A DNA stretch of 64,000 bases, taken from Eubacterium sp. An11 (GTDB lineage Bacteria > Bacillota > Clostridia > Lachnospirales > Lachnospiraceae). Each line of letters begins with the position of its first letter. Positions within the stretch are counted from its first letter, which is position 1. Positions 7,301 through 46,825 of this stretch are shown here, one piece after another. The stretch covers positions 1 through 64,000 of the forward strand of contig NZ_NFLV01000004.1 of NCBI RefSeq assembly GCF_002161065.1. The letters run 5' to 3'. A program made the position numbers and the translations under genes. The notes below the pieces were generated by a model, which saw nothing but the letters and a program-made list of their open reading frames with translations, was not told the origin of the DNA and did no database searches.

Positions 7301-10300
7301 CCAGGTTCCCTGTTCCTCCGGATTCTTGCCGTTTTCCAGGTCATAGAGGTCATAATTGCCATCTACCACAAGGTGCTTATCGGAACGCAGGATAAACGCA
7401 TCGATCTTGGCGGTCTTTATATAATCGTCTTCTCCAGCCAGGTCGGTACCTTCCCGCAGCTCATAGCCGTTGGTATCATACAGGGCAATCGTTCCAGTCA
7501 GGAACTCCACGCCTTCGGTCTCCAACTTATCGGTGAAAACAAGGTTTCGGGCAATGGTTCCCTTATGAGTATTGATCACGTCGATGGTATAGGAGACATT
7601 ATCCCCGATCTCGTACTCGTCCGAATCGGCTTTCTTCACGATCTGCAAGCGAGGGGAATTGATATAAACGGTAGTGGTATCTTTAACCACTTCATAGCTA
7701 CCGTCTTCCGCCTTCTCCACGTTAGCCGCGGTCACCTTTGCCGTGTTAGTGATTTCTGTACCGTTGACGTCAACCTCTTCGTTCTCCAGAGCATTGGCGT
7801 CGTATTTAATAGTCAAAAACGCACCTTTTTCCAGGTAGGTATCTTTGACGATAAATCCATTCCCAGACTTTTCAATGGTGATGACCGGAGTGCGGTCCTC
7901 TGTCTCATCGTAAAGCTCCGGGTTCAGCGTATTGGTTTCGTCTTCGGTTCCGGCGATCTTATACTGGATAGTCTTGCCGTCTCCTCCGGACGCTTTCTCA
8001 AAGGTGAGGACAGTCCCGTCTGCGGCGGTCTCTGTGATAACAATGTCGTCATAATTTAATTCCAGGCCATCCGGCAGGGTCAGGTCATCAATGACCACAT
8101 CCTTTGCCACAGTGCCGTCAGCACCAGCGCTTGTTACGACTACCTGGTACTGGACTTTCTCATATCCCGTCTCTTCCTCGTAGATCCGGAACTCGTTATC
8201 ACACCGGTTGTCGTTCTTCTCCGTTTTATAGGGATTGATATAGGATTTGTCGATGGTGAGCTTCGCGGTGTTGATGTAATACTCCGCTTCATCCTGTACT
8301 TTTGGTGCATTATCGGCAGTTACCGTCACCATGTTCCGGGATTCCTCGCCATTGCCCTTCTCATTGGCTGCAGTTGTATAAGTGATGGTTGCTGTGGCTC
8401 CTGCCGGGAAATGATTGATGGTATATTTCCATCCGTTATCCCCGCTTTCTGCTTTGCCGGCTGTGACTTTCCGCGTTTCTGTCTCATTCCGGTATTCCGG
8501 ATTTAAGGTATTGGTCGGGTCGTTCGTACCTGCTACTGGTACCACGACAGTTTCCGGCAGGCCGGAAATCTTCACGGAATCATAATCCAGGGTCATGCCT
8601 TCCGGTACATCATCTGCGATAACAACGTTGTTGGCGGTACCTTTGCTTGTGTTGGTTACCTTGACCGTGAAAGTAGCGGTATCGCCAATCTCGTATTCAT
8701 ATCGGTCTACGGTCTTATCCACCGTCAGGACAGCGCTGTTGATGTAAGTCTCTGCATCATCATCCGCATGGCCGGATGGATTCTTGATGTTCCAGCAGGT
8801 TGCACTGGCGGTATTATACAGTTCTTTGGTATTTCCGGATTCTAAGGCTTTGCAGTTGACTTTTACCGTCAATGTCTGGTTGGCTCCCAGGTTTGCCCCT
8901 GTAACGCGGACATTTTGGCCATCCACCGAGCCAGATCCGGCACTCGGCGTTACTCCGTTTACCTGCAGATCAGACGGGATGGCATCGGTCATAACCACAT
9001 CGTAAGCGGTGGAATTGTCTGTCACGTTTTTCACTGAAATAGTGTAGGTTACGGTATCACCCACCTTATACTCGTAGGCATCTGCCACTTTATCAAAGGT
9101 CAGCTCTGCCAGCGGGACGCGGACAGTCACTTGATTGGATGTTTTATTATAAGTCTCATCGTCCGGGTCAACATACTGTAAGGAGCTGCTGTTCGGGATA
9201 ACCGCATAATTCCTTCCCGAATCATAGTATGGTGCCAGATTTGCGTCGGCCTTAATTTTAGCAGCGATATTGACAGACACTGTGCCGGTTGGGTTCGTTA
9301 CAAGATAACTGCTCTTTGCGCTCACTGTCACCGTCTGTCCATTGATACTGTAATCAAAGTTGCCTGTGGCATCGCCACCATTAACTGTGATGCCTGTGAT
9401 GCTCATTGGCGTCAAAACACCTTCCAATGTATCAGTGATAATGAAGGATTTTCCTCCTGCAGAACCGTCTGTAATGGCGGCCTGTAAGGTATAGGTAAAA
9501 ACTTCTTTTGCATTGGAAAGGGTGATATCTGTAGTGTCATTGACCTGTTTGAAGATATCGGCTTCAAAAAAACCTTCATCTAAATCCAGATTTCCGTCAA
9601 AACTAAAAAAAGCGCCGTTCGTCTGGGTACCGGTAGCATCCGCACCACCAGAGTAATAACGGACTTTAAAAGTTGTATTAGAAGTAGAAGATGGTGTAAA
9701 GCCTAATGCCAAGGTATATTTTTTAGCACTTTTATATCCAGGTCTGTCAGTACCTAACTGAATATTGTCATCCCGTTCATCATGCGGGCCATCATACCAG
9801 ACCGTGTTTCCTTCCGTTGCCCCGATCTGATTACACTTCGCTGCACCAGCCCAGGACAGCTTCGCTGCCTTATATGCCCAGTCTACCCGTCCTGGACTTA
9901 ATACTTCCACTGCCTGGTTACAATCAATGTCGATAAAACGCAAGTGCATCTTTGCATTGCTGCCCTCGACCATGTTTTTGGTGCCATGCTCATAAACATA
10001 AATGGAGCAGTCCAGGCTCTTATATCCACGGAACCGGACTGCGCCAAGCTGGCCGTCAAAGACTGCAATATCGCAGCCTTCCGCATTGCTGATGGTCCCT
10101 TTGGCATTGTCGAAGACAACCCGGACATCGTATTTCTGCCCATCATCTGTAATATCAATGTTATTATACTGAATCCAATATGTCCCACTGGTTGTCAGAT
10201 TAGAAATATAGGCATCTCCTAAATTTCCTAGAGCTCCTTCTGCCCCCTGATCACGATCCTCCCAAATCCAGTCTTTATCACCTGTCTTTTTGGCTTTCGT

Positions 10301-10531
10301 CAGATTATCCGAGGTTTCGATCTGAATGCCAGATGTATTAGATGGCAGATCCAAAGAATGGTATCCCTGCACATCCGTTGATTTCAGGCTGTCTACTTTT
10401 ACATCCCGAACGGTCGTCGCCGCATGAACTGTCAGTACATCCGACCACATGGAAGACATGGTGGAAAACACCATGAAAAAAGCAGCACATAGAGACAACA
10501 CTTTTCTTAATCTTCTTTTCATACTTCCCAT
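4376..10531 (-). CDS. Giant sortase-anchored surface protein with ten DUF11-like repeats
   Basis: A 2051-residue protein. Residues 1-38 form a signal peptide with a basic start and an Ala-rich end. Residues 39 to about 470 form a unique N-terminal region likely to hold any ligand-binding function. About ten DUF11-like beta-sandwich modules follow, starting near residues 472, 599, 754, 960, 1134, 1271, 1405, 1559, 1694 and 1848, each opening with a Lys-containing strand such as Leu-Thr-Phe-Asp-Lys and a Tyr-x-Val/Ile-Gly-Asp-x-Val turn. Modules 6-7 and 8-9 are a tandem copy of one 288-residue unit. The C-terminus has GAKTG at 2016-2020, a hydrophobic helix and a basic tail, so sortase anchoring is expected. 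It probably mediates adhesion between cells or to host surfaces during transfer. The start has AAGGGAG 8 bases upstream. The ligand cannot be told from sequence. Confidence 0.85.
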   Translation of the reverse strand: MGSMKRRLRKVLSLCAAFFMVFSTMSSMWSDVLTVHAATTVRDVKVDSLKSTDVQGYHSLDLPSNTSGIQIETSDNLTKAKKTGDKDWIWEDRDQGAEGALGNLGDAYISNLTTSGTYWIQYNNIDITDDGQKYDVRVVFDNAKGTISNAEGCDIAVFDGQLGAVRFRGYKSLDCSIYVYEHGTKNMVEGSNAKMHLRFIDIDCNQAVEVLSPGRVDWAYKAAKLSWAGAAKCNQIGATEGNTVWYDGPHDERDDNIQLGTDRPGYKSAKKYTLALGFTPSSTSNTTFKVRYYSGGADATGTQTNGAFFSFDGNLDLDEGFFEADIFKQVNDTTDITLSNAKEVFTYTLQAAITDGSAGGKSFIITDTLEGVLTPMSITGITVNGGDATGNFDYSINGQTVTVSAKSSYLVTNPTGTVSVNIAAKIKADANLAPYYDSGRNYAVIPNSSSLQYVDPDDETYNKTSNQVTVRVPLAELTFDKVADAYEYKVGDTVTYTISVKNVTDNSTAYDVVMTDAIPSDLQVNGVTPSAGSGSVDGQNVRVTGANLGANQTLTVKVNCKALESGNTKELYNTASATCWNIKNPSGHADDDAETYINSAVLTVDKTVDRYEYEIGDTATFTVKVTNTSKGTANNVVIADDVPEGMTLDYDSVKISGLPETVVVPVAGTNDPTNTLNPEYRNETETRKVTAGKAESGDNGWKYTINHFPAGATATITYTTAANEKGNGEESRNMVTVTADNAPKVQDEAEYYINTAKLTIDKSYINPYKTEKNDNRCDNEFRIYEEETGYEKVQYQVVVTSAGADGTVAKDVVIDDLTLPDGLELNYDDIVITETAADGTVLTFEKASGGDGKTIQYKIAGTEDETNTLNPELYDETEDRTPVITIEKSGNGFIVKDTYLEKGAFLTIKYDANALENEEVDVNGTEITNTAKVTAANVEKAEDGSYEVVKDTTTVYINSPRLQIVKKADSDEYEIGDNVSYTIDVINTHKGTIARNLVFTDKLETEGVEFLTGTIALYDTNGYELREGTDLAGEDDYIKTAKIDAFILRSDKHLVVDGNYDLYDLENGKNPEEQGTWNPPYVNVTSETKMSIKYDMKITDKDLAGKEILNTATAVSDEALKVTTDETVIPDGPNPKVEKEIDNASPVVGKDVTFTLTFTNPNQNTTAEDVQITDALDQTGMVTIYADSMSVKLNNEDVTEQVQIAYNETMDGFDMDTGLDLTEDDTLVVTYRAKVLPEAGDVELVNTAGVSCSNNPEWKYDSVPFIPEKKVPKLAIEKTSDQDTYQVGDTGHYTVNVTQTTEDMTAKQVVIKDALQAEGAKIQVDTIKLYFNDVEITPANIISDVNGYTIETGKDLSDKDSLKVTYDVYFESGRLNGQTVPNTAKAKAENTETETDREVPLTPVGDGLEAKKEANPAGGTVVKAGDTIQYTITVKNISDQEKTDVLVRDAIPELTTYVEGSGGELFTIDEQPYVRFVIPVIAAGEAQQVFFSVTVNEEATEDDVIKNTAQVYEPTAEEIGEDGTVPEKIWNSDRFEDTNTITHPLDDWVVTDHEVDVVSPTLAIEKTSDKDVYQVGETGHYTVTVTQTKEDLIAKHIIVKDNLQVDGATIQPDTIKVYFNDTEITPVSVTADSKGYLIDTGMDLTDSDAIKVLYDVVFVEESLMGGMVPNTAKAKADNAYAETDHEVPLTPVGDGLTAKKEADPVSGTVVEAGGTIQYTITVKNTSDKEKTNILVRDAVPEYTTYVESSGGEVFMIDEQPYVRFILPSIAAGEAQNVSFSVTVNEDVDKDEVIKNVAQVYEPTKEEIGEDGTVPEETWNSDKFHDTNDTLHPLDNWIITEHEVGVGTPDVSIEKKADATVYSVGETIQYTIAVSQNTEGATATNVIVEDKDLTKGVDIDYASIQVDGAAVPEKDEVERNTDSIHLVRTDGGFKIVYPTLSGQSEITFHATITSEDLTGQKINNTATVITDQTPEKEATVTVKVPKSPLEKAVEKTFHPDGTSSEDNNEERKSGPKGAKTGVTSYAGWFALAAAAFGGAGVFLIRRRRKKMK
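4990..6717 (-). repeat. Tandem 864-bp duplication inside the surface protein gene
   Basis: Two head-to-tail units (about 5854-6717 and 4990-5853), each coding for two DUF11-like modules. Both contain the same landmarks in the same order: Leu-Ala-Ile-Glu-Lys-Thr-Ser-Asp, Val-Pro-Leu-Thr-Pro-Val-Gly-Asp-Gly-Leu and Asp-Glu-Gln-Pro-Tyr-Val-Arg-Phe. They have diverged at many positions, so this is not an assembly artefact. Confidence 0.8.
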
Positions 10532-15560: not shown

Positions 15561-15677
15561 ATAGTTCGTAAAATATAAAGAATTTATTTTCATAATTCAT
15601 ATATAATTTGTTTAAGGATTGTCCACATTATCATCGCATTTTCATGTGTTATGTTTTGTTTGATGACGTATAATAAG

Positions 15678-16878
15678 TTTCGCAAAAATAAAATTTTATA
15701 AATAGACATGGTCTATAGCCGTTTGGTAGAATTAAGTCACCACAACAAAATTTATCAAAGGAGGCTATAAAACCATGTCTGATAAGATTACACAGCTAAA
15801 TGAGGACTTAATAAAGCATGATTTAAAAGATCTTGTCCGCAGCAGTGTCGAAGAAACCTTAAATGCCCTGCTCGACAAAGAAGCGGATGAGTTAGTTAAT
15901 GCGGAGAAATACGAACGATCTGCTGACCCTCAAGGATACCGTTCCGGTCACTATAAGCGGAATCTTCATACAACAGCAGGGAAAGTGGAACTGAAAGTTC
16001 CCAAGCTCAAGGGTGTTCCTTTCGAAACTGCCATCATTAGACGGTATCGCCGCAGAGAATCTTCTGTTGAAGAAGCACTCATCGAGATGTATTTTGCCGG
16101 TGTTTCTGTCCGTCGTGTAGAAGATATCACCAAAGCTTTATGGGGAACAAAAGTGATTAGCAACCTCAATAAAAAAGAGTATGAACATATCGAAACCTGG
16201 CGGACACACCCTCTTTCCGGGAACTATCCATATGTTTATGTGGATGGTGTTTATCTGAAACGCAGCTGGGGCGGTGAGATCCAGAATGTTTCCGTTTTAG
16301 TTGCAATCGGCGTCAGCCAGGATGGATGTCGTGAAATTCTTGACGCTGCTGAAGGCATGAAAGAGGATCGTGAGATCTGGCGTTCTTTCTTTGTATGGCT
16401 GAAGGAACACGGCTTACTTGGTGTACGCCTGATTATCAGTGATAAGAATCTGGGGATGCTGGAAACCATTCCGGAAGTTTTCCCAGATGCCAAATATCAG
16501 CACTGTACTGTGCACTTTTACAGAAACATCTTTTCCGTTACACCCCGTAACAAGATGAAAACGGTAGCTCTCATGCTGAAAGCAATCCATGCCCAGGAAA
16601 GCAAAGAAGCAGCCCGGGAGAAAGCACTCCAGGTAGCTGAAAAACTGAAAGTAATGAAGCTGTCCAAAGCTGCAAAAAAGGTGGAGGATGGCATTGAAGA
16701 AACATTAACCTATATAGATTTTCCAAGCCAGCATTGGACTCGGATCCGGACGAACAATACGATTGAACGCCTCAACCGTGAAATCAAACGCCGAACCAAA
16801 GCAAAGGAGAATCTACTGTCTGATATCATAGCCGGTTGACTGCCGGTTACCAAACGGCTGAATTTAATTTTTGTGAAA
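15678..16878 (+). mobile_element. IS256-family insertion sequence with matching ends
   Basis: The ends carry imperfect inverted repeats of 19 bases (15678-15696 and 16860-16878, about three mismatches) and, just inside, a perfect 12-bp subterminal pair AGCCGTTTGGTA (15717-15728) and its complement (16848-16859). The total is about 1.2 kb, shorter than usual because the transposase 3' end is deleted. I see no clear 8-9 bp target duplication outside the repeats, which argues for later rearrangement. Confidence 0.75.
15775..16839 (+). CDS. IS256-family transposase, C-terminally truncated
   Basis: A 354-residue mutator-type DDE transposase; family members are about 400. All three catalytic acids appear present: Asp in Tyr-Val-Asp-Gly (about 160), Asp in Ile-Ser-Asp-Lys (about 223) and Glu in Asn-Thr-Ile-Glu-Arg-Leu-Asn (about 328). 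The His-Cys-Thr-Val-His-Phe-Tyr-Arg motif is intact. After Arg-Arg-Thr the normal end is replaced by an unrelated 15-residue tail, so the last 50 or so residues are lost. A four-residue gap also appears at Lys-Val-Ile-Ser-Asn-Leu, where relatives carry Ser-Pro-x-Thr. It has its own AAAGGAGG site and runs opposite to its neighbours. Probably inactive or impaired. Confidence 0.85.
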   Translation: MSDKITQLNEDLIKHDLKDLVRSSVEETLNALLDKEADELVNAEKYERSADPQGYRSGHYKRNLHTTAGKVELKVPKLKGVPFETAIIRRYRRRESSVEEALIEMYFAGVSVRRVEDITKALWGTKVISNLNKKEYEHIETWRTHPLSGNYPYVYVDGVYLKRSWGGEIQNVSVLVAIGVSQDGCREILDAAEGMKEDREIWRSFFVWLKEHGLLGVRLIISDKNLGMLETIPEVFPDAKYQHCTVHFYRNIFSVTPRNKMKTVALMLKAIHAQESKEAAREKALQVAEKLKVMKLSKAAKKVEDGIEETLTYIDFPSQHWTRIRTNNTIERLNREIKRRTKAKENLLSDIIAG

Positions 16879-16889
16879 AAATCTTGTCA

Positions 16890-17118
16890 CTATCGGCATT
16901 CTCTGATCTGTTCTGCCCATTCATTCAAACGAACCTGCTGTGCAACTAAACTTGTTTGGAATTTCATGACTTACCTCCAATCATTGGTCAAAAAAGTTGA
17001 ATACTCAACTTTTTTGACTGTATAGTAATAAATCTATTATCCCAAATATAGAAGATTTAGAAAAGATACCCGCTATTTTGCGTGTACATTAAGCGAGTAC
17101 GATGTACGCATTTTGTCT
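16890..17118 (-). mobile_element. IS66-type element left-end remnant with tnpA start
   Basis: On the minus strand, a GGAGG-preceded ATG at 16967 opens a 25-codon frame (16890-16967) reading Met-Lys-Phe-Gln-Thr-Ser-Leu-Val-Ala-Gln-Gln-Val-Arg-Leu, as in the first residues of IS66-family TnpA accessory proteins. It stops where the IS256 copy begins. Upstream, near 17090-17118, lies a terminal-repeat-like stretch with TGCGTACATCGTACTCGCTT. Only the promoter end of the IS66 element survives; the rest is not on the far side of IS256. Confidence 0.5.
16987..17018. other. Perfect 14-bp hairpin in the IS66 leader
   Basis: GTCAAAAAAGTTGA and its exact complement are separated by a 4-base loop, placed between the IS66-like end and the tnpA ribosome binding site. 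Such hairpins often shield transposase genes from outside transcription; that role is an inference. Confidence 0.55.
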
Positions 17119-21588: not shown

Positions 21589-21930
21589 TTATCCCTCTTT
21601 TCTGATTTTGTCATCTACATAATCAATGACCTGGCAGTCTTCCACAATGATTTCCGTAAAACAGACCCGTTTTCCCTCTTTATTGGTATAATCCCCATTT
21701 TTTACACGTCCCACAAGGAGCAGCCGTCCTCCTTTTCTGGCATAGGACACCAGGTATCTTGCCCTGCCTCCATACGCGACACAGTTAAAAAAATCTGCTT
21801 CCTTTTCTTTTGCGTATTCCCGGTCCACTGCGATCCGAAACCGGCACCAGTATGTCGTACTGCCCTCTTTTTCTTTTCTCTGCAATTCCGGCTCATATAC
21901 AAGCCTTCCCAATAAAACCGACAGATTCAT
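21589..21930 (-). CDS. ssb: Single-stranded DNA-binding protein (ICE copy)
   Basis: A 113-residue OB-fold protein with the sequence pattern of Ssb (Leu-Gly-Arg-Leu near the start, a Phe-Arg-Ile-Ala-Val-Asp strand, Phe-Phe-Asn-Cys-Val-Ala, then Gly-Arg-Val-Lys-Asn-Gly). It lacks the acidic Asp-Asp-Ile-Pro-Phe tail of chromosomal Ssb, which is common in mobile-element copies. It should coat the single strand produced during transfer and replication of the element. The start at 21930 has GGAG 6 bases upstream; the frame opens earlier, inside the sortase gene. Confidence 0.82.
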   Translation of the reverse strand: MNLSVLLGRLVYEPELQRKEKEGSTTYWCRFRIAVDREYAKEKEADFFNCVAYGGRARYLVSYARKGGRLLLVGRVKNGDYTNKEGKRVCFTEIIVEDCQVIDYVDDKIRKEG

Positions 21931-21946
21931 CCTAATCTCCTTCCAT

Positions 21947-22702
21947 TTAATCTTCATCTATGTCTTCTGTTCTCTCTTGTACCACACTGTGCACCGTATA
22001 TCTTGAATCTTCGCTTCGCCCCGTAGAACAGGTGGAGAGTGTGATTACCCTGTCTTCTTTGACAGGTACTACTCCCATGCCATAATAATTTTCTTCCACT
22101 GTCATTGTCAGCCAGGCCATCCATTCTTTCCCCGTTCGAAACTCTGTCTGATATGTCTCACTGGCATCTTCACAGTCATAGGTACTGTAGATCCGGGCGT
22201 GGGTAGTCCTTCCCTGCTCATAGATATATACATCGGGATGTTCCCGGCCAAACTCTTTTGATTCATAGTCATGGAGAGAACCGAACATTGCCCGGCTGGC
22301 CATGTTATGTCCATAGACCACGATATGCTGGTCTGAAAAACTCACGCCCGGCTGGATAAAAATAGAGCCGGGATAACTATACTCTCCTTTATAATCTTTA
22401 TGCAGGTATTCATTCCAGGTGGAACACTGCAGCACCGGATAATCGATCTTTGTCCCTGGTACTGTGATCCAGGCGACGATATCCGGATTGATCTTCTGCA
22501 GTTGATCCCAATGGATGTTATCCCTTCTCGTCTCTTTCCCATTGGGATCATGCTCTTCCGTCTTCACCTTTTCCCGCAGCTGCCGGATCTCCCATTCACT
22601 TTTTATAAAAGGGGCCACATCCTTTACAGCAAGCACCGCACAGGCCAGTGCCACCGCAAAGATTCCAAAGAGCAGCAACTGATACAATGTCCTTTTTACC
22701 AT
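21947..22702 (-). CDS. srtB: Class B sortase
   Basis: A 251-residue membrane-anchored transpeptidase with an N-terminal helix (residues 5-26) and the class B sortase fold. The catalytic residues visible are His132 (Val-Tyr-Gly-His-Asn), Cys225 (Thr-Leu-Ser-Thr-Cys) and Arg234 (Asp-Ser-Arg-Tyr-Thr). It should cleave Thr-Gly bonds in sorting signals and join the protein to peptidoglycan. Two candidate substrates are encoded on the same element: PPQTG at 3706-4275 and GAKTG at 4376-10531. The gene begins six bases after the preceding gene and is followed by ssb, as in other Tn1549-like ICEs. Confidence 0.92.
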   Translation of the reverse strand: MVKRTLYQLLLFGIFAVALACAVLAVKDVAPFIKSEWEIRQLREKVKTEEHDPNGKETRRDNIHWDQLQKINPDIVAWITVPGTKIDYPVLQCSTWNEYLHKDYKGEYSYPGSIFIQPGVSFSDQHIVVYGHNMASRAMFGSLHDYESKEFGREHPDVYIYEQGRTTHARIYSTYDCEDASETYQTEFRTGKEWMAWLTMTVEENYYGMGVVPVKEDRVITLSTCSTGRSEDSRYTVHSVVQERTEDIDED

Positions 22703-23456: not shown

Positions 23457-24674
23457 TTACATCCCTCCATACAGGTCATGGTTCACTTCCGCCTGGTAAT
23501 AATGGCTCATCGTCATGGTCGCATTATAAAGCGTCGTCAAAAGATAGGCGCGGATATTTCCTACTTTTGTCGTATTTTTATGTAGGCAGGAAAGGATATA
23601 ATCCACATGGGAAAACCGTAGTTTCATAAAACGATTCTTTACGATTTCCGCCGCCTTATTCACCCCGGCAATCCTTACGACACTCTCATCAGGAAGGATC
23701 ATGATCTCCACCATCAATTCCACCAGTTCATCCACCTCTTCCCGTTCCAGCGGACTCCTTCCAGCGAAACTGTCATATTCGATATTTTCCCTTATTTTTG
23801 CTCTGTATGCTTCCATCTCATCCATCTTTTTCTTTCCGGCAGGATTTCCCCGTCCCCTCTTTAGCGATTGATAGGATATGATAGGTCTATCCTTATCCGT
23901 ATTATTATCCTCAGTATCATTACCGTTTGATTTTCGAACTTCTGAAAGTCCGTTTTTCATACTTCTAGAAGTTTGATTTTCATACTTCTGGAAGTTCACA
24001 TATGGTCTTTCCTGGGTGCCATCATCCATACCTACAGATCCCCCCTTTTCATACCTCTGCGCTTCTTTTTCTTGGATATCGCATCTTTTTCTTCCAGTTT
24101 TTCTATGAATAGGGTGATATTCATGCTGTTTTTCTACTGGTATTTGCTGACATCCGGCTTTCTCATTCCCTGAAATCCCGTCCCCGTCTTTCTGGCAGGC
24201 ACTTTCTGGTACTTCTGGAAGTTCGTTTTTCATACTTCCAGAAGTTTGATTTTCATACTTCTGGAAGTCCTCCTGAACTGCTCCATCTCCTGTCCCGGCA
24301 TCACAGCCCTCTATGACAAAATTTTTAACATAAATAATATTCGGCTTTCCCTGCCCCATTCGTTTCTTTTCGATCAGCCCGATGCCTTTTTCCCCATCGA
24401 GTTCCGCAATGCTCCTGACCGCTTTCTGCCGCCCGCATCCCAGCAGCTCCATGATCTCTTCAACGGTAAATATGATATAGACCCGGTTCTTTTCATCAAA
24501 CCACTGGTTCTTCACACTGAGCCCCATGCGGTCCAGCATGAGGCCGTACAATATTTTGGCCTCACAGGAAAGGGACTGAAAACATGTTTCCGTAAAAAGC
24601 ATCTTCGGGACCCGGTAAAAACTGTATTGATCTGCTTCCATTCCATAATAATATTCAAACTTCAGCCCCTGCAT
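23457..24674 (-). CDS. RepA_N family replication initiator
   Basis: A 405-residue protein. Residues 1-110 match the conserved RepA_N N-terminal domain (Tyr-Tyr-Tyr-Gly, Phe-Tyr-Arg-Val-Pro-Lys, Leu-Ser-Cys-Glu-Ala-Lys-Ile-Leu-Tyr-Gly-Leu-Met-Leu-Asp-Arg-Met), a winged-helix DNA-binding module of low-GC Gram-positive plasmids and ICEs. The C-terminal 120 residues form a helical domain. The middle is poorly conserved and holds two copies of a peptide with Phe-Gln-Lys-Tyr-Glu-Asn-Gln-Thr-Ser. The DNA coding for those copies carries the palindromic iterons described separately, consistent with RepA_N origins lying inside the rep gene. It overlaps parB by 20 bases. It should allow the excised circle to replicate. 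Confidence 0.85.
   Translation of the reverse strand: MQGLKFEYYYGMEADQYSFYRVPKMLFTETCFQSLSCEAKILYGLMLDRMGLSVKNQWFDEKNRVYIIFTVEEIMELLGCGRQKAVRSIAELDGEKGIGLIEKKRMGQGKPNIIYVKNFVIEGCDAGTGDGAVQEDFQKYENQTSGSMKNELPEVPESACQKDGDGISGNEKAGCQQIPVEKQHEYHPIHRKTGRKRCDIQEKEAQRYEKGGSVGMDDGTQERPYVNFQKYENQTSRSMKNGLSEVRKSNGNDTEDNNTDKDRPIISYQSLKRGRGNPAGKKKMDEMEAYRAKIRENIEYDSFAGRSPLEREEVDELVELMVEIMILPDESVVRIAGVNKAAEIVKNRFMKLRFSHVDYILSCLHKNTTKVGNIRAYLLTTLYNATMTMSHYYQAEVNHDLYGGM
23938..23995. repeat. Iteron cluster I inside rep
   Basis: Three 12-bp palindromes close to ACTTCTGGAAGT start at 23938, 23961 and 23984, a spacing of exactly 23 bp (about two helical turns). The sequence between them is also nearly constant, with TTTTCAT before copies two and three. 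They lie inside the initiator gene. Likely initiator binding sites of the element's replication origin. Confidence 0.65.
24211..24268. repeat. Iteron cluster II inside rep
   Basis: Three more palindromes of the same type start at 24211, 24234 and 24257, again with exactly 23-bp spacing. The cluster is a direct repeat of cluster I, 273 bp away. Both clusters encode the same short peptide, so the duplication covers about 60 bp each. Confidence 0.65.
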
Positions 24675-25554
24675 CTTCTTCCCCTTCCTTTCCTTTTTTC
24701 CACTGCTCCAGCAGTGTATAGATCACTTCTTCCATCTGTGCACTTGTATATGTCGGCGGGAAATACTCCCTGATCTTTTTTGGGGCCAGTGTCACACGGA
24801 CCGCCTGTCTTTCCTTTTTTGCCAGGATCCCATACACCGCTGTTTCTTCCAAGGTTCCATTTCCACTGTATTCTTTGAATTTCCCTGCCTGCGATGGGGA
24901 CGGATATCTGCCGGTGTCCTGACAGGCTTTCTGCACCCATTCCTGTTCCTGTCTTTTCAGATATGACAGTTTCTCTGCTGCTGTCATCCCTATATTCCCG
25001 GCATCTACCATAAAAAGCAGCCCATCAACCAGCTCTGCCAGACGGATATATCTTTGTACCGTCCGCCCGCTGTCCCCTGCTTTTTCCCCGACAACATCCG
25101 CGGTACGTTTTTCTCCCCAGCTCCCCTGGTGTTTCATCGCTTCATATTTCATCTTGTATGCCTTTGCCTTTTCACTGGGACGCAGATTCTCCCGCTGGAT
25201 GTTTGTATCCACCATAAGGACTGTGGCCGCATCGTCATCCAGTTTCCGGATGATAACTGGCATCTCTTCTATCCCTGCCAGTTCACAGGCACGCCACCGG
25301 CGGTGCCCGGCTATCACCTCATACCCATCGGCACAGGGACGGACAATCCCCGGCTGGATGACCCCATGCTGTTTGATGCTCTCCACCGTTTCCTGCATCT
25401 TTTCATCATCCAGAACCAAGAATGGGTGCTCTTTGAAAGGACGGAGCAAACGGAGCGGAAGAACCGTATACTCTCCCTGCACACTGTTTTCCCCGGCGCC
25501 AAACAACTCATCATAAGAAGTCAGCTTTATCTTTTGTGCACTCCTACTTTTCAT
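24655..25554 (-). CDS. parB: ParB/Spo0J-like partition protein
   Basis: A 299-residue protein. Residues about 35-125 form the ParB N-terminal nuclease-like/CTPase domain with Gly-His-Arg-Arg-Trp-Arg-Ala and Thr-Asn-Ile-Gln-Arg-Glu-Asn-Leu-Arg-Pro-Ser-Glu motifs. A KorB/HTH region follows with Gly-Arg-Thr-Val-Gln-Arg-Tyr-Ile-Arg-Leu. The C-terminal part is a helical dimerisation region. It should bind parS-like sites and work with ParA to keep the excised or replicating element in dividing cells. The start at 25554 has GGAGG 9 bases upstream and overlaps the end of parA by 11 bases; the frame runs upstream inside parA without a site. Confidence 0.88.
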   Translation of the reverse strand: MKSRSAQKIKLTSYDELFGAGENSVQGEYTVLPLRLLRPFKEHPFLVLDDEKMQETVESIKQHGVIQPGIVRPCADGYEVIAGHRRWRACELAGIEEMPVIIRKLDDDAATVLMVDTNIQRENLRPSEKAKAYKMKYEAMKHQGSWGEKRTADVVGEKAGDSGRTVQRYIRLAELVDGLLFMVDAGNIGMTAAEKLSYLKRQEQEWVQKACQDTGRYPSPSQAGKFKEYSGNGTLEETAVYGILAKKERQAVRVTLAPKKIREYFPPTYTSAQMEEVIYTLLEQWKKGKEGEEDAGAEV

Positions 25555-26329
25555 TGGCGAGCACCTCCCCTGTAAGCAGACGATATCCTTCGGCAACATT
25601 CCCTTTCGGGTCATGCAGATAGATGCTCTTCCCTTCTGCTGTCGTTTCGGCCGCCCGCACCGACATCGGGATGCAGTGGGCAAAAATATGTACATTATCC
25701 CCGTAGACTTCCCGGATCTGTTTTTCAATATCTTTTGCAAAGTTGGTCCGCCGGTCCACTTTTGTCAAAAGAATTCCCAGGATGGAAAGTTTTCTGTTCA
25801 GCTGTCTGTGTACTTTTCCGATCGTCTTAATCAGCTGCTGCAGCCCTTTCACAGGAAGGTATGCGGCTTCCACCGGTATCAGGACACTGTCCGCCGCCAC
25901 AAGGGCATTGATTGTGATCATCCCCAGGGACGGCATACAGTCGATAAGTATATAATCATATCTGTCTTTGATCTCTTCCAGATACAGACGCAGGATCTGC
26001 TCCCGGCTCATCACGTTCACCAGCGAAGTCTCCAGCCCGGCAAGCTCGATATTCGCCGGAATAAAGTCGACGCCTTCTTCATGATGACAGATTCCTTCTT
26101 CCAGATTAATTTCTTCCTCATTGATCACTTTTCCAAGAATCTGCACCAATGTCATCTCCAGTTCATCGGGTTCCTGTATTCCAAGGCTCACCGAGAGACT
26201 CCCCTGAGCGTCCGCTTCTACCAGAAGGACTTTTTTCCCTTTCCTTGCAAGTCCAATCCCTAAATTTACACACGTCGTCGTCTTTCCTACTCCGCCTTTT
26301 TGATTTGCAACTGCGATTACTCTGCACAT
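25544..26329 (-). CDS. parA: ParA-type partition ATPase
   Basis: A 261-residue deviant-Walker ATPase with Lys-Gly-Gly-Val-Gly-Lys-Thr-Thr at residues 10-17, Ala-Asp-Ala-Gln at about 39-42 (the usual Asp-x-Asp-Pro-Gln is modified) and Asp-Tyr-Ile-Leu-Ile-Asp-Cys as Walker B. It is a cytoplasmic partner of ParB in segregating the element. It is the first large gene of the operon, preceded by two tiny ORFs; its start is 2 bases beyond the stop of the 57-residue ORF, so translation is probably coupled. Confidence 0.92.
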   Translation of the reverse strand: MCRVIAVANQKGGVGKTTTCVNLGIGLARKGKKVLLVEADAQGSLSVSLGIQEPDELEMTLVQILGKVINEEEINLEEGICHHEEGVDFIPANIELAGLETSLVNVMSREQILRLYLEEIKDRYDYILIDCMPSLGMITINALVAADSVLIPVEAAYLPVKGLQQLIKTIGKVHRQLNRKLSILGILLTKVDRRTNFAKDIEKQIREVYGDNVHIFAHCIPMSVRAAETTAEGKSIYLHDPKGNVAEGYRLLTGEVLANEK

Positions 26330-26653: not shown

Positions 26654-26992
26654 TATGCAACCTCCTTAAAAATATTTTTATACTAAAAAAAGGACGAAAC
26701 TCTTTATTTTCTCAGATATTCGTCCTTATATTGGAGTGTATTCTCCTTCCGTTTTATTACCAAAATATTCAATTATATAAAAACACCAGATAGCATGACA
26801 TATCCACCTGATATTTTCTTCTGCGGTAATATCACATGTTTTATTCTTTTTTCCCTTGTCTTGATTTCCTCCTTTCGGTATACTATGTTATTCTGTACAG
26901 ATATCTTTTCCCTTTCGTGGTTAATGAGTCGGGATATGCACCAGAAACGCCTTTTTCAAGGCTTTTCCCGTGTTGTCCCTATTATATCTCAC
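26654..26992. other. Terminal region of the ICE, no gene
   Basis: Besides the hairpin at 26684-26727 this stretch holds no ORF of note. On the minus strand it includes a weak GCCTT/AAGGC stem-loop near 26950-26963 and an AAAGGAGGAAATC stretch near 26865 with no start codon after it. It should contain the element's right end and the promoter of the parA operon. Confidence 0.45.
26684..26727 (-). terminator. Terminator-like hairpin ahead of the parA operon
   Basis: Perfect 9-bp arms AAGGACGAA (26719-26727 read on the minus strand) and TTCGTCCTT, 20-base loop, followed by a U-run in minus-strand RNA. It lies 31 bases upstream of the first ORF. Either it ends transcription entering from the chromosome side or it attenuates the operon. 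Confidence 0.6.
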
Positions 26993-27004
26993 TCACTCGC
27001 CCTG
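26985..27004. other. Putative ICE-chromosome junction (attachment site) in spoIVB
   Basis: The spoIVB reading frame matches its family up to Gly-Gly-Ile-Ile-Gln-Gly (codons to 26999) and then reads Glu-stop. The following bases code for no Met-Ser-Gly-Ser-Pro in any frame. The crossover should lie at or a few bases either side of 26990-26999. The partner site is outside the window, so the core repeat cannot be defined. Confidence 0.7.
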
Positions 27005-28030
27005 GATGATGCCGCCGGTCAGAGCGATGAGGTCCGGATCTGTGATCTTGATGCGGAGCGCCTTCTGGGCGTCTTTTTTGCTCAGGGAAATTTTTTCTAT
27101 CTCGATGGTATAATCTCTGCTCTCCCCGCTGATACTGGTTCTGACAAAGGCTTTTCCTGTTTTGATCTCCGAGGCGTCGGCCACTTCCATCAGCTGGCCG
27201 TTCCGGAAATTTTCCTGATGATTTTTTATGAGACCGAAGATGCCGCAAGTGCTGTTGATGCCGATGTTGCCCAGATATTTTTCCGGGATATAGTCGATGG
27301 TCCCGATGACCTGTCCCGGGTCTTTGGCTTTGCCCTTCATGATGGAAGCGATATCGGTCTCATAGATGCTTCCGCCGGCAATGTTTAACTGGACGCCCAG
27401 GTCACAGTCGCTGATTCCGTGGCCCAGGGCGGCAAAGTTTCCGTCTTCGGTGATATAGGTGACGGTTCCGATACCCTGGGTATCGTTGCGGATCCAGGCA
27501 CCGATCTGGTAACAATGATCTTCTTCGGAGTAGACCGGCTGTATTTTAATCTGCTGCTCTTCGCCGTTTCGGGAAATGGTGAGCACGGCTTCTTTCTCCT
27601 CGTTTTTCTGCAGGCAGGAAATAAACTGTGCCTTGGAAGAAATGTCTTCCCCGTTCATGGCCAGAATATAGTCCCCGGACTCCAGTTTATGTTCTGCCGG
27701 TGAGCAGGTTCTGTTGTCTGCCGTTTTTACATTCTGGATTCCCAGAACCAGAACGCCCTTGGTTTTGATGTATATGCCCACCGGCTCTCCGGAGGCATAT
27801 ACCTTGGTTTTTGTCTCCTTCTTATCCCCGCCCGCTGCCAGCGTCTCTCTTATGTCCTCTTCCCCTGCCGCGTCGTACAGTCGTTCCTCTACATGAAACA
27901 ATTCTCCCGCCTGCGCTCCGGCGGCAAATAATACTGCCGTCAGCAGTAAAAAATAGAATCTTCGCAGCCTGCTTTTTTGCTGCTTTTGTGTTATCCGCGG
28001 CTTTTGTGCCTTCAATGAATTTTCAGCCAT
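26993..28030 (-). CDS. spoIVB: SpoIVB stage IV sporulation protease, truncated before catalytic serine
   Basis: 345 residues from the ATG at 28030 (GGGGG 8 bases upstream; an ATG at 28045 is also in frame). It has an N-terminal membrane anchor, a PDZ domain (about 95-165) with Gly-Asp-Tyr-Ile-Leu-Ala-Met-Asn-Gly, then the S55 peptidase domain with the catalytic His in Leu-Gly-His-Gly-Ile. The frame stops right after Thr-Gly-Gly-Ile-Ile-Gln-Gly, where relatives continue Met-Ser-Gly-Ser-Pro with the catalytic Ser and about 35 more residues. SpoIVB triggers SpoIVFB/pro-sigma-K processing from the forespore side, so the truncated form should be inactive. The element between 1 and 26,990 follows the break. 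Normal neighbours are recN upstream and spo0A downstream; spo0A is absent here. Confidence 0.9.
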   Translation of the reverse strand: MAENSLKAQKPRITQKQQKSRLRRFYFLLLTAVLFAAGAQAGELFHVEERLYDAAGEEDIRETLAAGGDKKETKTKVYASGEPVGIYIKTKGVLVLGIQNVKTADNRTCSPAEHKLESGDYILAMNGEDISSKAQFISCLQKNEEKEAVLTISRNGEEQQIKIQPVYSEEDHCYQIGAWIRNDTQGIGTVTYITEDGNFAALGHGISDCDLGVQLNIAGGSIYETDIASIMKGKAKDPGQVIGTIDYIPEKYLGNIGINSTCGIFGLIKNHQENFRNGQLMEVADASEIKTGKAFVRTSISGESRDYTIEIEKISLSKKDAQKALRIKITDPDLIALTGGIIQGE

Positions 28031-28061
28031 AAAAAATACCCCCATGCTAAAGTACTGACCT

Positions 28062-42539: not shown

Positions 42540-43157
42540 TCAGCTTCCGGATACGTTCATCCGGCTGATGACAATCTGGCTGACGGTGCAGCCGGTCTTT
42601 CTGGTGACGATGTCTTCAATCTGTGCCCGGTCCGCCTGGCTCAGTACGTCGTAGTTTAAAACCACGTCGACGCTGTCGTCGCCGATGGATACCACCGAAT
42701 CTCCGTAGCCTTTGGTGTCGAGGAGCTGTTCGGTGGCCGCCTCTTTTTCAATGACTTCCGCCAATTTTGTAAGTTTGGCCACGGCGTCCTCTTTTTCGCT
42801 GTCGCTCAAGGATTCATTTTCAATGATCTCGTTGAGGGAATCCCGGGTTTTGGAGTGGGTCTGTTCCCGCTCCATCTTTGCGCCGGCCACGTATTCTCCC
42901 ACCTGCGCCTGGGTGAGCACGGCGTCGCCGATGGTCTCCGTATCCTCGGTGGGGATCTCATCGTCCACCTTTTCGCTGATGAGGGAGTCGCCGTCGGAGA
43001 TGTCCATGGTGTCAATGGTATCCAGAGAGTCCTCCGCCGTCTCATAGCTGACAGTGGACGGCGCCTCTGATTTGGTAAAGTTCAGATACCCTGCCACGGC
43101 AATCATAATTGCCAGCGAGGTGATCGCAATCTGATTGCTTTTAAATATTTTTTTCAT
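42540..43157 (-). CDS. spoIIIAH: Stage III sporulation protein SpoIIIAH
   Basis: 205 residues: an N-terminal membrane helix (about 10-27), a Glu/Asp-rich linker and a C-terminal ring-building domain of the YscJ/FliF type (about 115-205; Asp-Ser-Val-Asp-Val-Val-Leu-Asn-Tyr and Gly-Cys-Thr-Val-Ser-Gln-Ile-Val-Ile). It is the mother-cell half of the channel that pairs with forespore SpoIIQ across the intermembrane space. It overlaps spoIIIAG by four bases. Confidence 0.92.
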   Translation of the reverse strand: MKKIFKSNQIAITSLAIMIAVAGYLNFTKSEAPSTVSYETAEDSLDTIDTMDISDGDSLISEKVDDEIPTEDTETIGDAVLTQAQVGEYVAGAKMEREQTHSKTRDSLNEIIENESLSDSEKEDAVAKLTKLAEVIEKEAATEQLLDTKGYGDSVVSIGDDSVDVVLNYDVLSQADRAQIEDIVTRKTGCTVSQIVISRMNVSGS

Positions 43158-43729
43158 TGATGAACCTCCATTTTCAACACTTTGATGCGATTGACTGATA
43201 TTCCGAAAAGAACCTGTGCGGCCTCGGTCACCGCCGCTGCCACTGTATTATTGTCTGCTCCCTCGCAGGCAATGACAACGCCGGCAATCGCCGGTTCCAG
43301 CTCCTTGATGACGTAAGGCGCCGATTCGCCGCTTTCATCGGCGAGGACGGTCTCATTTTCTCTTCTGCTGCTCTGCCGCTCATTTTTTGTCCCGTCGGAG
43401 GTCTCCGTCTCTGTTTCCAGTTCCTCCGTATCATCTTTATTTAACACTGATTCTCTGGACGCTTCTAAAGTGATCATCACCTCCACCTGTCCCACCCCGT
43501 CTACATTTTCCAGGATATGTACTAATTTATTTTCAAGTCCCTCAATATATGCTTCATTTTCACTGACTGACGCTGTATTTTGTACCTCGGTGTTTTCTTC
43601 CGGTTCTGCTCTCGCCCTCCATTCGGAAAGATTAGTCACAAGAAGGATGACTCCGGCGATGGCGATCAGAAGAATCTTTTCCACACCAAAATCCTTCAGC
43701 GTTATTTTTTTCCGTTCTTTCTTTTCCAT
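43154..43729 (-). CDS. spoIIIAG: Stage III sporulation protein SpoIIIAG
   Basis: 191 residues with a basic N-terminus, one membrane helix (about 19-36) and a ring-forming domain interrupted by a long acidic stretch (Asp-Asp-Thr-Glu-Glu-Leu-Glu-Thr-Glu, about 95-125), as expected for SpoIIIAG. It builds a large oligomeric ring in the sporulation channel. The last four bases overlap spoIIIAH. Confidence 0.92.
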   Translation of the reverse strand: MEKKERKKITLKDFGVEKILLIAIAGVILLVTNLSEWRARAEPEENTEVQNTASVSENEAYIEGLENKLVHILENVDGVGQVEVMITLEASRESVLNKDDTEELETETETSDGTKNERQSSRRENETVLADESGESAPYVIKELEPAIAGVVIACEGADNNTVAAAVTEAAQVLFGISVNRIKVLKMEVHQ

Positions 43730-43772
43730 ACCGGCCCCACTCTCCTTTTCTCCTGCAAAAGGTTTCCTGTCC

Positions 43773-44282
43773 TCAGTCTTTTACTGTTATATCTATATTC
43801 GATGCCTCCAGATTATAGACTTCCATAAGCGCCTCCCGGAAATCGTGAATCTGCGGAGTCTTTCCCTCCTCCCCGCTCTCCCTGCCTTCCACCTTAAGGC
43901 TCCTTATGGCGTCGCCCTCCGGCTTCCAGCGGACGCGGACTTTGGTCACTTCAATGAAAAAAGAAGCGGCGAGCTCTGTCACCTGCTTCTGTATCGTCTG
44001 GTCGTATTCTTCCTGTATATCTTTTTTCATTTTTTTCAGATCTTCTGACTGCTCGATGATCTGCCACTCATTTTTCAGCTGATTGAGGATATAGGAGGCG
44101 TCCATGTACTGCCCCGCCCCCGCAAAGTCAATGAAAGGTTTGACCAGGCAGAGCATCATGAGGAATCCGGAGAAGAAACGCAGATAGCTTTCGTATTTTG
44201 TATTCCGGATAAAGCTGTCGCAGACAAGCAGAAGGACATTCATATAGAGAATGGTTTTCAGCCAGTCTTTTAAATATTCCAT
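43773..44282 (-). CDS. spoIIIAF: Stage III sporulation protein SpoIIIAF
   Basis: 169 residues with two N-terminal membrane helices (about 8-25 and 33-50) and a soluble domain (about 60-169) with alternating beta/alpha pattern. Start preceded by GGAGG. Located between spoIIIAE and spoIIIAG in the standard order. A component of the mother-cell channel complex. Confidence 0.88.
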   Translation of the reverse strand: MEYLKDWLKTILYMNVLLLVCDSFIRNTKYESYLRFFSGFLMMLCLVKPFIDFAGAGQYMDASYILNQLKNEWQIIEQSEDLKKMKKDIQEEYDQTIQKQVTELAASFFIEVTKVRVRWKPEGDAIRSLKVEGRESGEEGKTPQIHDFREALMEVYNLEASNIDITVKD

Positions 44283-44306
44283 GGAACGCGCCTCCTCTCT
44301 TCGTCT

Positions 44307-45620
44307 TTATATTTTGTTGGTCGCCAGGGAGGTGACCGCTATGGTGAGGATGAACAGGGCCGCCGTGATCCCCAGGGTATACACCAGCAGTATGCCGCCT
44401 TTCTGCGCCGCGCTGATACACCGGATGAACCGCTCGTCGGCCACCGGCTCCAGCAGAATGGACAAAAGCAGATAAAACAGACAGTACAGCAGCAGTTTGA
44501 TGATGGGCACGGCCAGAAACAGCAGGATAAAGATGATGGCCGCAGCTCCCATGGTATTTTTTATCATCAGGGCGGAACCAACCACCGTTCCCGCCACCGA
44601 CTGCACCACCGACCCGACGCCGGGGATCATTCCCACAATCCGGTTGAACACCGCATTTTTTGTGGTGTCAAAGGACGGGACCACCATAGTCTCCAGCAGG
44701 TGAAAGCCGAAAAACAAGACAAAAAGGAACTTCATGCTTTTGGATAAAAGCAGATAGAGGCTTTCGCACAGCCTGGAAATGTTAGGCCGGGCGGAAAAGT
44801 TATTGAGCAGTTCCAGCAGCAGATAATACTGGATCATGGGCAGCACCACCGTCAGACAGATCCAGTTGACCACCAGCACCACGATCATAAAATATTCATA
44901 AAAGACCACTCCCACCGTCAGATTGCCGCTTAAGGTGACCGCCAGAGTATATGCGGGTATGAGCATCTTGAGCAGTTTTGACAGCGTTTCCACCGTATGG
45001 GAGAAAAGATTCGCCATGATGGTGAAGTTGGAAAAAATGATGGTAAAAGTAATAAAGTACGAGATCAGAAAGCCGCTGTCCCCGATGGCAAACTGCCGGA
45101 AAGAGGAGGAAATGTTATTGAACACGGCGGCAAAAATGATCACTCCGATCAGTTCCCCCATGAGCACCCAGGAAGTGGATATCTCATAAGTCAGCGTTTC
45201 TAAAAGCCACATCCCGGCTTCTTCCAGGGCGTCCGTGAAGCGGAAGTCCAGCAGAGCGTCAAATATGGCGGAGAAATCCGGGTATTCGTAGTCTTCCTCC
45301 AGACCATGAAGCTCCCTGGTCAGTTCATCAATATCCAGCTGACTCTCCGCTTCTTCCGCGTTCTCCCGGCCATCGGTCTGCTCCTCTTCTGCCTGTCCTG
45401 TTTGTCCATCCTCTGCCTCCTCAGACCGGCTGTCTTCCTGCTGCTCCCCCTGCCTGTCCCGCTCAGATGACCCCTGTGCCGTTCCTGACGCCGCCTGCAC
45501 GGGCAGCGGTCCCCAGGATGCAAACCACAGAAACGTCAGCCACGCAAACGTCAGTGACAGAAACACACCCGGCCGTATTCTTTTTTTCTTTTCCTTTTTC
45601 CTTCCCGCTGTCCTCTCCAT
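44307..45620 (-). CDS. spoIIIAE: Stage III sporulation protein SpoIIIAE
   Basis: 437 residues with a signal-like N-terminus, an acidic, Gln-rich low-complexity segment (about 45-105) longer than I would expect, then a polytopic membrane region of about eight helices (about 150-437) with the family's Met-Ile-Pro-Gly-Val-Gly-Ser-Val-Val loop. It is the largest integral membrane part of the SpoIIIA channel. The start at 45620 has GGAGG 7 bases upstream. Confidence 0.92.
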   Translation of the reverse strand: MERTAGRKKEKKKRIRPGVFLSLTFAWLTFLWFASWGPLPVQAASGTAQGSSERDRQGEQQEDSRSEEAEDGQTGQAEEEQTDGRENAEEAESQLDIDELTRELHGLEEDYEYPDFSAIFDALLDFRFTDALEEAGMWLLETLTYEISTSWVLMGELIGVIIFAAVFNNISSSFRQFAIGDSGFLISYFITFTIIFSNFTIMANLFSHTVETLSKLLKMLIPAYTLAVTLSGNLTVGVVFYEYFMIVVLVVNWICLTVVLPMIQYYLLLELLNNFSARPNISRLCESLYLLLSKSMKFLFVLFFGFHLLETMVVPSFDTTKNAVFNRIVGMIPGVGSVVQSVAGTVVGSALMIKNTMGAAAIIFILLFLAVPIIKLLLYCLFYLLLSILLEPVADERFIRCISAAQKGGILLVYTLGITAALFILTIAVTSLATNKI

Positions 45621-45659
45621 GGTGTTCCTCCTCTCTTTCCGGCAGCCGGGAAACATTTT

Positions 45660-46043
45660 TTACATGACGGATTCAATGGTTTCCAGCAGGGAATTGATGA
45701 TCGGTATGCTCAGAATAAATATGGATATCTTTCCGATGATCTCCACCTGGAAGGAGATGGACTGATAGCCCAGGTCCTGGCAGATATTAGAAGCCACCTG
45801 ACAGATAAAGGCGATGGCCAGCAGTTTAAACAGGATGTTGATATAAGTGTCGCTTACGTGTATTTTTCCTCCCAGATTCTCCGCGAAATCCACGATGACC
45901 GATACATTTGACGTGAGGTAGGCGATGAGGAAGAGACAGACGGCCAGAAGAACAAATACGCTGTACTCTTTGCCGAACTGCCGGATCACCACCGTGAGGA
46001 TGGCTCCTCCTATACCTATGAGCGCGATTTTTAAAATGACCAT
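45660..46043 (-). CDS. spoIIIAD: Stage III sporulation protein SpoIIIAD
   Basis: 127 residues, three or four membrane helices, with Leu-Ile-Gly-Ile-Gly-Gly-Ala at the start and Ala-Ser-Asn-Ile-Cys-Gln-Asp-Leu-Gly-Tyr in the middle, both typical of the SpoIIIAC/AD family. Paralogous in part to SpoIIIAC upstream. Confidence 0.9.
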   Translation of the reverse strand: MVILKIALIGIGGAILTVVIRQFGKEYSVFVLLAVCLFLIAYLTSNVSVIVDFAENLGGKIHVSDTYINILFKLLAIAFICQVASNICQDLGYQSISFQVEIIGKISIFILSIPIINSLLETIESVM

Positions 46044-46108
46044 ATGAATACCCCCGTATCCTTCTGCCGCAGCAGGCGGACTGCCCGCACATTTTCATGC
46101 CTGTGCAT

Positions 46109-46303
46109 TTACAATTGAAAGAGACTGTATATCTGATTAAACAGATCATTGATGCACGGAATGATCCATGACAGCACAATAAACAGTCCCGACAAACTGA
46201 TCAGGAAAGCCTGCTCCTCCCGGCCGGCGTGTTTGAGCACCTGGTTCAGGATGGTCACGAGAATTCCCACGGCTGCAATTTTAAAAATAAGCTGAATGGT
46301 CAT
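46109..46303 (-). CDS. spoIIIAC: Stage III sporulation protein SpoIIIAC
   Basis: 64 residues with two membrane helices and a basic turn (Lys-His-Ala-Gly-Arg-Glu-Glu), the normal size and layout of SpoIIIAC. It lies ten bases after spoIIIAB and has AGGAG before its start. Confidence 0.9.
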   Translation of the reverse strand: MTIQLIFKIAAVGILVTILNQVLKHAGREEQAFLISLSGLFIVLSWIIPCINDLFNQIYSLFQL

Positions 46304-46312
46304 TGGTCTCTC

Positions 46313-46825
46313 CTATATCAGAAAAATAACAATCAGTGCGCTCATGGACAGACACAGAGCCTGGTATACTTTCCTCTGGCTGTCCAGCTGTTTTTTCATG
46401 ACACTCACGTGCTCCTCTATCTCCCGGGAAAGCTGTTCCGACGTGTCCTTATGAAATACCAGATCATCGGACAGCAGATTCCGCCCCGCACGAAGGAACA
46501 GGTACTGTTCCTCGTCGGTGAGATTCTCCGCCAGATGATGAGTCAGCAGCCGTTCAAATTCATCGGAAAAAGTAAAGTCCCCGCCCTCTCTCATCTCCTC
46601 CGACAAATCCGAGAAAAAATCTTTCCAGCAGGAGCTGGTGCGGCGGCTGATCTCCGCAAACAGTTCCGGCAGCGGGATCTTTGCGTTTCTGATTTCCGAT
46701 TCCAGCAGGCGGAACAGATACTCTCCTTCTTCCAAAAGCTCCACGTGCCGCATGCCGGGCTCCGCCATCCGGCGGCTTAAAAGATAACCGGACACCAGCA
46801 AGAGAAAGGCTCCCAGCCACTTCAT
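46313..46825 (-). CDS. spoIIIAB: Stage III sporulation protein SpoIIIAB
   Basis: 170 residues with an N-terminal and a C-terminal membrane helix flanking a helical soluble domain, and the family motif Leu-Glu-Ser-Glu-Ile-Arg-Asn-Ala-Lys-Ile-Pro-Leu. It resembles type II/IV secretion GspF-like assembly proteins and is thought to work with the SpoIIIAA ATPase. Overlaps spoIIIAA by four bases. Confidence 0.92.
   Translation of the reverse strand: MKWLGAFLLLVSGYLLSRRMAEPGMRHVELLEEGEYLFRLLESEIRNAKIPLPELFAEISRRTSSCWKDFFSDLSEEMREGGDFTFSDEFERLLTHHLAENLTDEEQYLFLRAGRNLLSDDLVFHKDTSEQLSREIEEHVSVMKKQLDSQRKVYQALCLSMSALIVIFLI

Follow-up and report, generated by a model that had tools for sequence, protein, structure and literature searches.

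The sporulation gene spoIVB of Eubacterium sp. An11 is split immediately before the codon for its catalytic serine by a putative conjugative element (ICE), which very probably used the gene as a specific attachment site, with attL and attR made by large serine recombinases (LSRs), so that excision would rejoin the gene. In the window (the 64,000-nucleotide stretch analyzed here, on contig C39), the first-pass annotation had SpoIVB ending with Glu-stop after TGGIIQG, and this truncation is confirmed: the frame encodes 350 aa, 349 of them SpoIVB residues followed by a Glu, ends in TGGIIQGE, and matches Pfam Peptidase_S55 over profile positions 2 to 174 of 210 (173.8 bits) and the SpoIVB model TIGR02860 over positions 82 to 360 of 402. 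The missing 3' part, which had been expected at the far junction, is present elsewhere in the genome, on a second contig (C83:123548-123652, minus strand), where it starts SGSPIIQDGK and covers S55 positions 176 to 210. A profile search (E <= 10) found no S55 gene in the genome beyond these two pieces and hence no second intact spoIVB. Both halves are open frames free of inner stops, and when joined in silico they give 391 aa matching S55 positions 2 to 210 of 210 at 252.9 bits, versus 173.8 for the 5' half. Coordinates in the window are collected in the table below.

Features of the split spoIVB locus and the inserted element in the window
Feature	Position	Strand	Remarks
spoIVB 5' part	26993-28045	minus	chromosome ends at about 26996-26998; the element supplies the stop codon, 26995-26993
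attL	26972-27004	minus	spoIVB half CAGGGCG 27004-26998, core AG 26997-26996, half-site P' TGAGTGAGATATAATAGGGACAAC 26995-26972
Element part in window	1-26995	minus	C39 starts at window position 1; remainder on C9 (inferred) and C83:123654-132810
ParA-type ATPase	25544-26329	minus	PF13614, 204 bits; first clear gene inside attL
ParB-type protein	24655-25740	minus	PF02195; open reading frame as listed, true start probably further in
Replication initiator RepA_N + DUF6017	23457-24674	minus	PF06970, PF19481
Sortase	21947-22702	minus	PF04203
Single-strand binding protein	21589-21957	minus	PF00436
IS256-type (mutator) copy	15661-16894	plus	93.5% and 91.8% identity to L033 9206-10363 and 10476-10573
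PrgI-type T4SS protein at contig edge	93-494	minus	PF12666
Host spoIIIA cluster (context)	42540-47784	minus	SpoIIIAA above its NCBIfam cut-off; AB, AE, AF, and AG below theirs; 42540-43157 without match; AH assigned by position

The two pieces are taken as the two sides of one gene because both flanks match a single intact locus. In the relative G022, spoIVB is uninterrupted; one side aligns to the window (recN and the spoIVB 5' part, up to the break point), and the other aligns to the C83 region, where the spoIVB tail is followed by genes for an oxidoreductase, a 3D-domain protein, and an iron-dependent repressor. All 12 loci of the genus that fit the spoIVB motif (L002 to L013) lack the insert and have Leu before the serine, and three more distant loci fitting the motif (L014, L017, and L023) have Met there; the residue was read at motif-fitting loci only, 12 other distant loci lying outside the motif. 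In the genus member G007, the spoIVB frame is broken upstream of the insertion site. The host has retained other sporulation genes, namely, spoIIIA-type genes in the window and Spo0A-type genes on contig C28. The suggestion that the element had also displaced spo0A therefore fails; in G020 and G022, too, spoIVB is followed by a gene other than spo0A. Two Spo0A_C matches lie about 1 kb apart on one strand of C28 (156659-157942), and a third is on C61.

At the other end of the insert, the C83 junction (attR) reads GTTGTCCCTGTCTTGACACACTCC-AG-AGC GGC AGT CCC, and integration thus lies between defined att sites, attL in the window and attR on C83, with half-sites like those of other elements. A direct repeat shared with 26990-27004 had been predicted; common sequence does exist at the two ends, but it comprises merely the 2-bp core AG (26996-26997). 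The sequence TCCAG was rejected as a crossover repeat, as it would remove two residues (Gly-Leu) compared to the relatives. Tn916-like coupling sequences, considered for the unlike junctions, were dropped; other junctions show fixed half-sites and a 2-bp core.

When the element ends are joined, they form in this genome, G622, and G741 an imperfect palindrome of 24+2+24 nt (50 bp), as would be expected of an LSR attP. Within each of the three genomes the core is identical at both ends, and the attP half-sites agree at 17/24, 15/24, and 16/24 positions, respectively, a level reached by 2, 36, and 7 of 100,000 shuffles. The spacing (24 nt, 2-nt core, 24 nt) is constant across junctions, and the attL layout of the window recurs in L309, L322, and L323, there with core TG. 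Both junctions of our strain have AG as the core, as opposed to TG at each of the 12 others read (two of them in an array in G183, described below). LSR recombination requires the core to match between the two sites. Precise excision in silico leaves the empty site in frame in each of the three genomes tested. The predicted product is GGIIQGMSGSP for G622 and G741; our strain would have GGIIQGESGSP, with Glu before the serine because the core is AG rather than TG. The pre-insertion codon of this strain may have been GAG, or the core may have been altered later.

The gene content of the insert, its putative C9 part included, fits an ICE, which, together with the split, supports the earlier proposal of a conjugative element placed just before the catalytic serine. 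The partition and replication block named in the first-pass annotation is indeed found directly after the break, with ParA, ParB, and RepA_N/DUF6017 genes to the left of 26993. Contig C9 carries, from its edge, genes for a CD1110-family VirB4 (above its cut-off), a CHAP peptidase, a MobA-type relaxase, an ArdC-like protein, a DUF5688 protein, and a T4SS coupling protein, and the relaxase, coupling protein, and T4SS ATPase all fall within C9:1-16062. Three successive LSR genes with intact frames follow at C9:24218-29219, each with the Resolvase, Recombinase, and zinc-ribbon domains (PF00239, PF07508, and PF13408). From gene content, order, and orientation (PrgI edge to VirB4 edge), we infer that C9 is part of the same element as the window. 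The facing edges share no exact overlap at either C39-C9 or C9-C83, and both joins are therefore putative.

The C83 end lies near an HTH_Tnp_1 transposase gene, and the C9 end appears by eye to be IS3-type sequence. If C9 joins C83, about 85 kb would lie between the LSR trio and attR, including a stretch that looks phage-like by eye. The 9 kb inside attR on C83 contains an Abi_2 gene with a broken frame, an HTH_17 protein gene, and IS copies; the scans detected no recombinase there. The IS256-type element of the window has a second copy on the C83 side of the insert, from which its Pfam name was taken. None of the 13 tyrosine-integrase matches in the genome was linked to the element. The phage-like genes at about 38 to 82 kb of C9, accompanied by two further serine recombinases (names by eye), possibly represent a prophage nested in the element. 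Near the sortase gene, the window also encodes (4376-10531) a 2,051-aa secreted repeat protein with a hydrophobic and basic tail (by eye), probably a surface adhesin of the element.

Related elements occupy the same site in other genomes. A pattern built from the C83 junction and the repeated spoIVB tails of G183 matched one viral contig (L263/L264), on which the spoIVB tail (L264) comes directly after a three-serine-recombinase operon. LSR1, LSR2, and LSR3 of C9 are 69, 61, and 65% identical to the members of the L264 trio, versus 27 to 33% for paralogues. Searching for LSR3 orthologues (>= 50% identity or E < 1e-200, own genome excluded) gave 15 loci, and in all 8 with a readable junction the insertion is in spoIVB at the codon before the catalytic serine (attR in L264, L266, L267, L319, L320 [G622], L321 [G741], and L336; attL in L265/L309); these eight are not all independent, since L266 and L267 have one element sequence in common and the L320 and L321 elements are similar. 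The other seven loci reach contig ends (L268, L330, and L335) or are followed by other genes (L331 to L334, among which L332 to L334 are one common sequence where compared by eye). Four further loci with 31 to 32% identity (L269 to L272) were treated as paralogues, and their junctions were left unread.

The element sequence is identical in L266 and L267, and the two diverge exactly after the core into two different spoIVB genes. All three LSRs are present, at 46 to 61% identity, in L319, L320, L321, and L336. In G622 and G741, S55 is represented solely by a 5' half that stops at position 176 and a tail that starts from position 175, on separate contigs; just inside attL, G622 carries a gene for ParA, like the window. 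The trio adjoins the junction in eight other loci but is not adjacent to attR in our strain. Because related three-LSR elements occupy the same codon in other bacteria, spoIVB appears to be a dedicated landing site for LSR-trio elements, and the trio would be linked to integration at spoIVB by this association. Upstream of LSR1 in L320 (369-617) and L336 (5177-5437) is a gene for a small DUF6870 protein, a candidate directionality factor or regulator. A small gene following LSR3 in L265 and L332 is a further candidate directionality factor.

Among the matches listed from 392 genomes of the order (own excluded), LSR3 reached no more than 38% identity over most of its length, with shorter matches at 45 to 46%; at E <= 1e-120 it was found in 3 of 391 genomes of the class (our strain, G622, and G741) and 3 of 398 genomes of the phylum (our strain, G845, and G871). 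The trios of G845 and G871 are more distant (36% identity for LSR3 and 43% for LSR1) and end ACTTGACACAGGC-TG-ATGA inside ResIII-/SWI2/SNF2-type helicase-type genes, at the DE(C/A)H motif (L342 7565 and L341 8335, respectively). Therefore, the wider LSR-trio family is not confined to spoIVB, whereas the closer clade seems to be, as far as its junctions can be read. The DE(C/A)H motif is a second catalytic motif serving as a landing site.

In the mechanism that we favor, one or more of the three LSRs would insert a circular form of the element at attB, which is the codon preceding Ser-Gly-Ser-Pro, to produce attL and attR, and excision with a directionality factor would rejoin spoIVB without a scar. 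The integrated state would leave a SpoIVB without the serine and the last 41 residues, and failure late in sporulation would therefore be expected. Excision would be mostly under the element's own conjugative control, with sporulation lost to the host until the element leaves; once excised, the RepA/ParAB circle may be maintained as a plasmid. In five of seven trios, the region upstream of LSR1 has sigmaA-like matches, and in none does it have a sporulation-type match (consensus matches, without a shuffled control); this lends weak support to control by the element itself. Functional recovery on excision is doubtful in our strain, since with an AG core the residue preceding the serine would be Glu, whereas all 12 readable genus relatives have Leu there. 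The AG core counts against attachment-site use of spoIVB, as do the putative nature of the contig joins, the distance of the trio from attR, and the helicase-type genes occupied in G845 and G871.

A competing reading, whose probability we place somewhat short of even, is that a single insertion has become fixed and decayed, leaving a nonsporulating lineage in which nothing is switched. The broken genes and IS copies inside attR, the displaced trio, and the Glu that an AG core would place before the serine all fit such a history, and the G741 element also looks eroded, since both the stretch inside attL and the one preceding the trio appear chromosomal by eye. Against decay stand the three intact recombinase frames on C9, the two open spoIVB halves, the retained spoIIIA and Spo0A-type genes, and the exact excision predicted for G622 and G741.

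It is unlikely that the element works as a skin-like switch, in which a recombinase or directionality factor controlled by a sporulation sigma factor would drive excision in sporulating cells and rebuild spoIVB on time. The scarless site and in-frame empty sites would suit such a switch, and the gin element, which also has three serine recombinases, does this for gerE (PMC5595907). In B. subtilis, though, spoIVB is transcribed by the forespore factors sigmaF and sigmaG (as described in PMC3789822), so that excision in that compartment would cost the spore its copy of the element; the promoter matches upstream of LSR1 and the Glu before the serine in our strain also argue against a timed switch. 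A variant that we regard as similarly improbable holds that integration and spore formation are mutually exclusive: excision before or within the forespore would rebuild an inherited spoIVB, and the RepA/ParAB circle would enter the spore as a plasmid and reintegrate after germination. If true, this would be the first case of an intervening element that lies in a gene of the forespore. That the junctions are artefacts of a fragmented assembly (104 contigs and 1.89% contamination) is scarcely credible: the two junctions are independent and reciprocal, their half-sites match, and unrelated assemblies show these half-sites at the same codon.

The most closely comparable system is gin, an element in gerE of Bacillus cereus ATCC10987. 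As described in PMC5595907, gin is a nonphage element with three serine recombinases that splits a sporulation gene and is excised during sporulation, and its att inverted repeat surrounds a central dinucleotide, where the Discussion of that paper places cleavage. In contrast to our element, gin interrupts a mother-cell gene, its girC lies apart from girA-girB, their mutual identity is low, and it carries no conjugation genes; the two trios are likened by description. Skin (sigK), SPbeta (spsM), vfbin (spoVFB), and yin (yabG) likewise interrupt sporulation genes with a serine recombinase and a restorable frame, but they are described as (pro)phage-like and from mother-cell genes, whereas here an ICE sits in a forespore gene. 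Excision of SPbeta is confined to the mother cell, and the spore retains the prophage (as reported in PMC4191935). An ICE in a forespore gene differs from these cases because excision in the forespore would be inherited.

Tn1549/CTn-type ICEs share with our element, its putative C9 part included, the CD1110-family VirB4, PrgI, the relaxase, and the RepA_N/ParAB backbone. Unlike those elements, which have TndX-like recombinases, it has three LSRs with orthologues elsewhere and one conserved target codon in spoIVB; the nearest named recombinases in plasmids are TndX, at 33% identity. Searches of the literature, with most subscription papers outside their scope, found nothing linking spoIVB with a serine recombinase or peptidase S55 with a recombinase and nothing on sporulation, ICEs, and serine recombinases in Lachnospiraceae. 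Gene-intervening elements themselves are already known; what would be new here is LSR-trio elements at spoIVB, with orthologous trios at every readable locus. An attachment site common to several elements, with matched attL/attR sets and recombinase trios in hand, raises the question of how such elements persist in spore formers despite disabling a gene needed in the spore compartment, where excision is inherited. This question touches on the limits that conjugation and sporulation set to one another, and also on the origin of sporulation-negative lineages.

Broader surveys covered other breaks in spoIVB. At least 275 of 392 genomes of the order match S55, and 12 genomes with odd S55 matches were examined, of which G183 and G043 were informative. 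The odd matches proved to be contig edges in G249 and G260 and, by coordinates, in G047, G170, G317, and G345, and a stop inside the gene in G327; the remaining three of the 12 were G265, G305, and G209, candidates of the same sort as G183, and the two-match genomes G111, G216, G250, G276, and G300 lay outside the 12. ParA also served as a probe for further insertions; it led to 160 loci, and none of the 59 scanned for the spoIVB 5' part had it. The SpoIVB 5' protein had no relative among viral contigs, and the attL pattern had four matches there, one in spoIVB (L309) and three without a spoIVB reading.

In G043, an S55 copy is broken at GAVTH-V (L255, contig C21, 7213-10039), and the junction is flanked by one large serine recombinase gene. 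The tail of this S55 copy lies in L256 (contig C50, about 8123-8230), and an intact S55 gene is present on C76. In G183 (L254, contig C132, 592-4313), two units resembling each other come after an intact spoIVB; both encode a barnase-like RNase (PF00545), the first together with a barstar (PF01337). Each unit ends in an element half-site and a further spoIVB 3' copy, and a fourth tail is degenerate. The arrangement suggests an array of cassettes, with each new arrival supplying a spoIVB end of its own. It resembles, in layout only, the tandem arrays at one att site formed by SCC at rlmH (mentioned in PMC5595907), and it differs from SCC in the gene used and in that no recombinase was seen on the 4.7-kb G183 contig.
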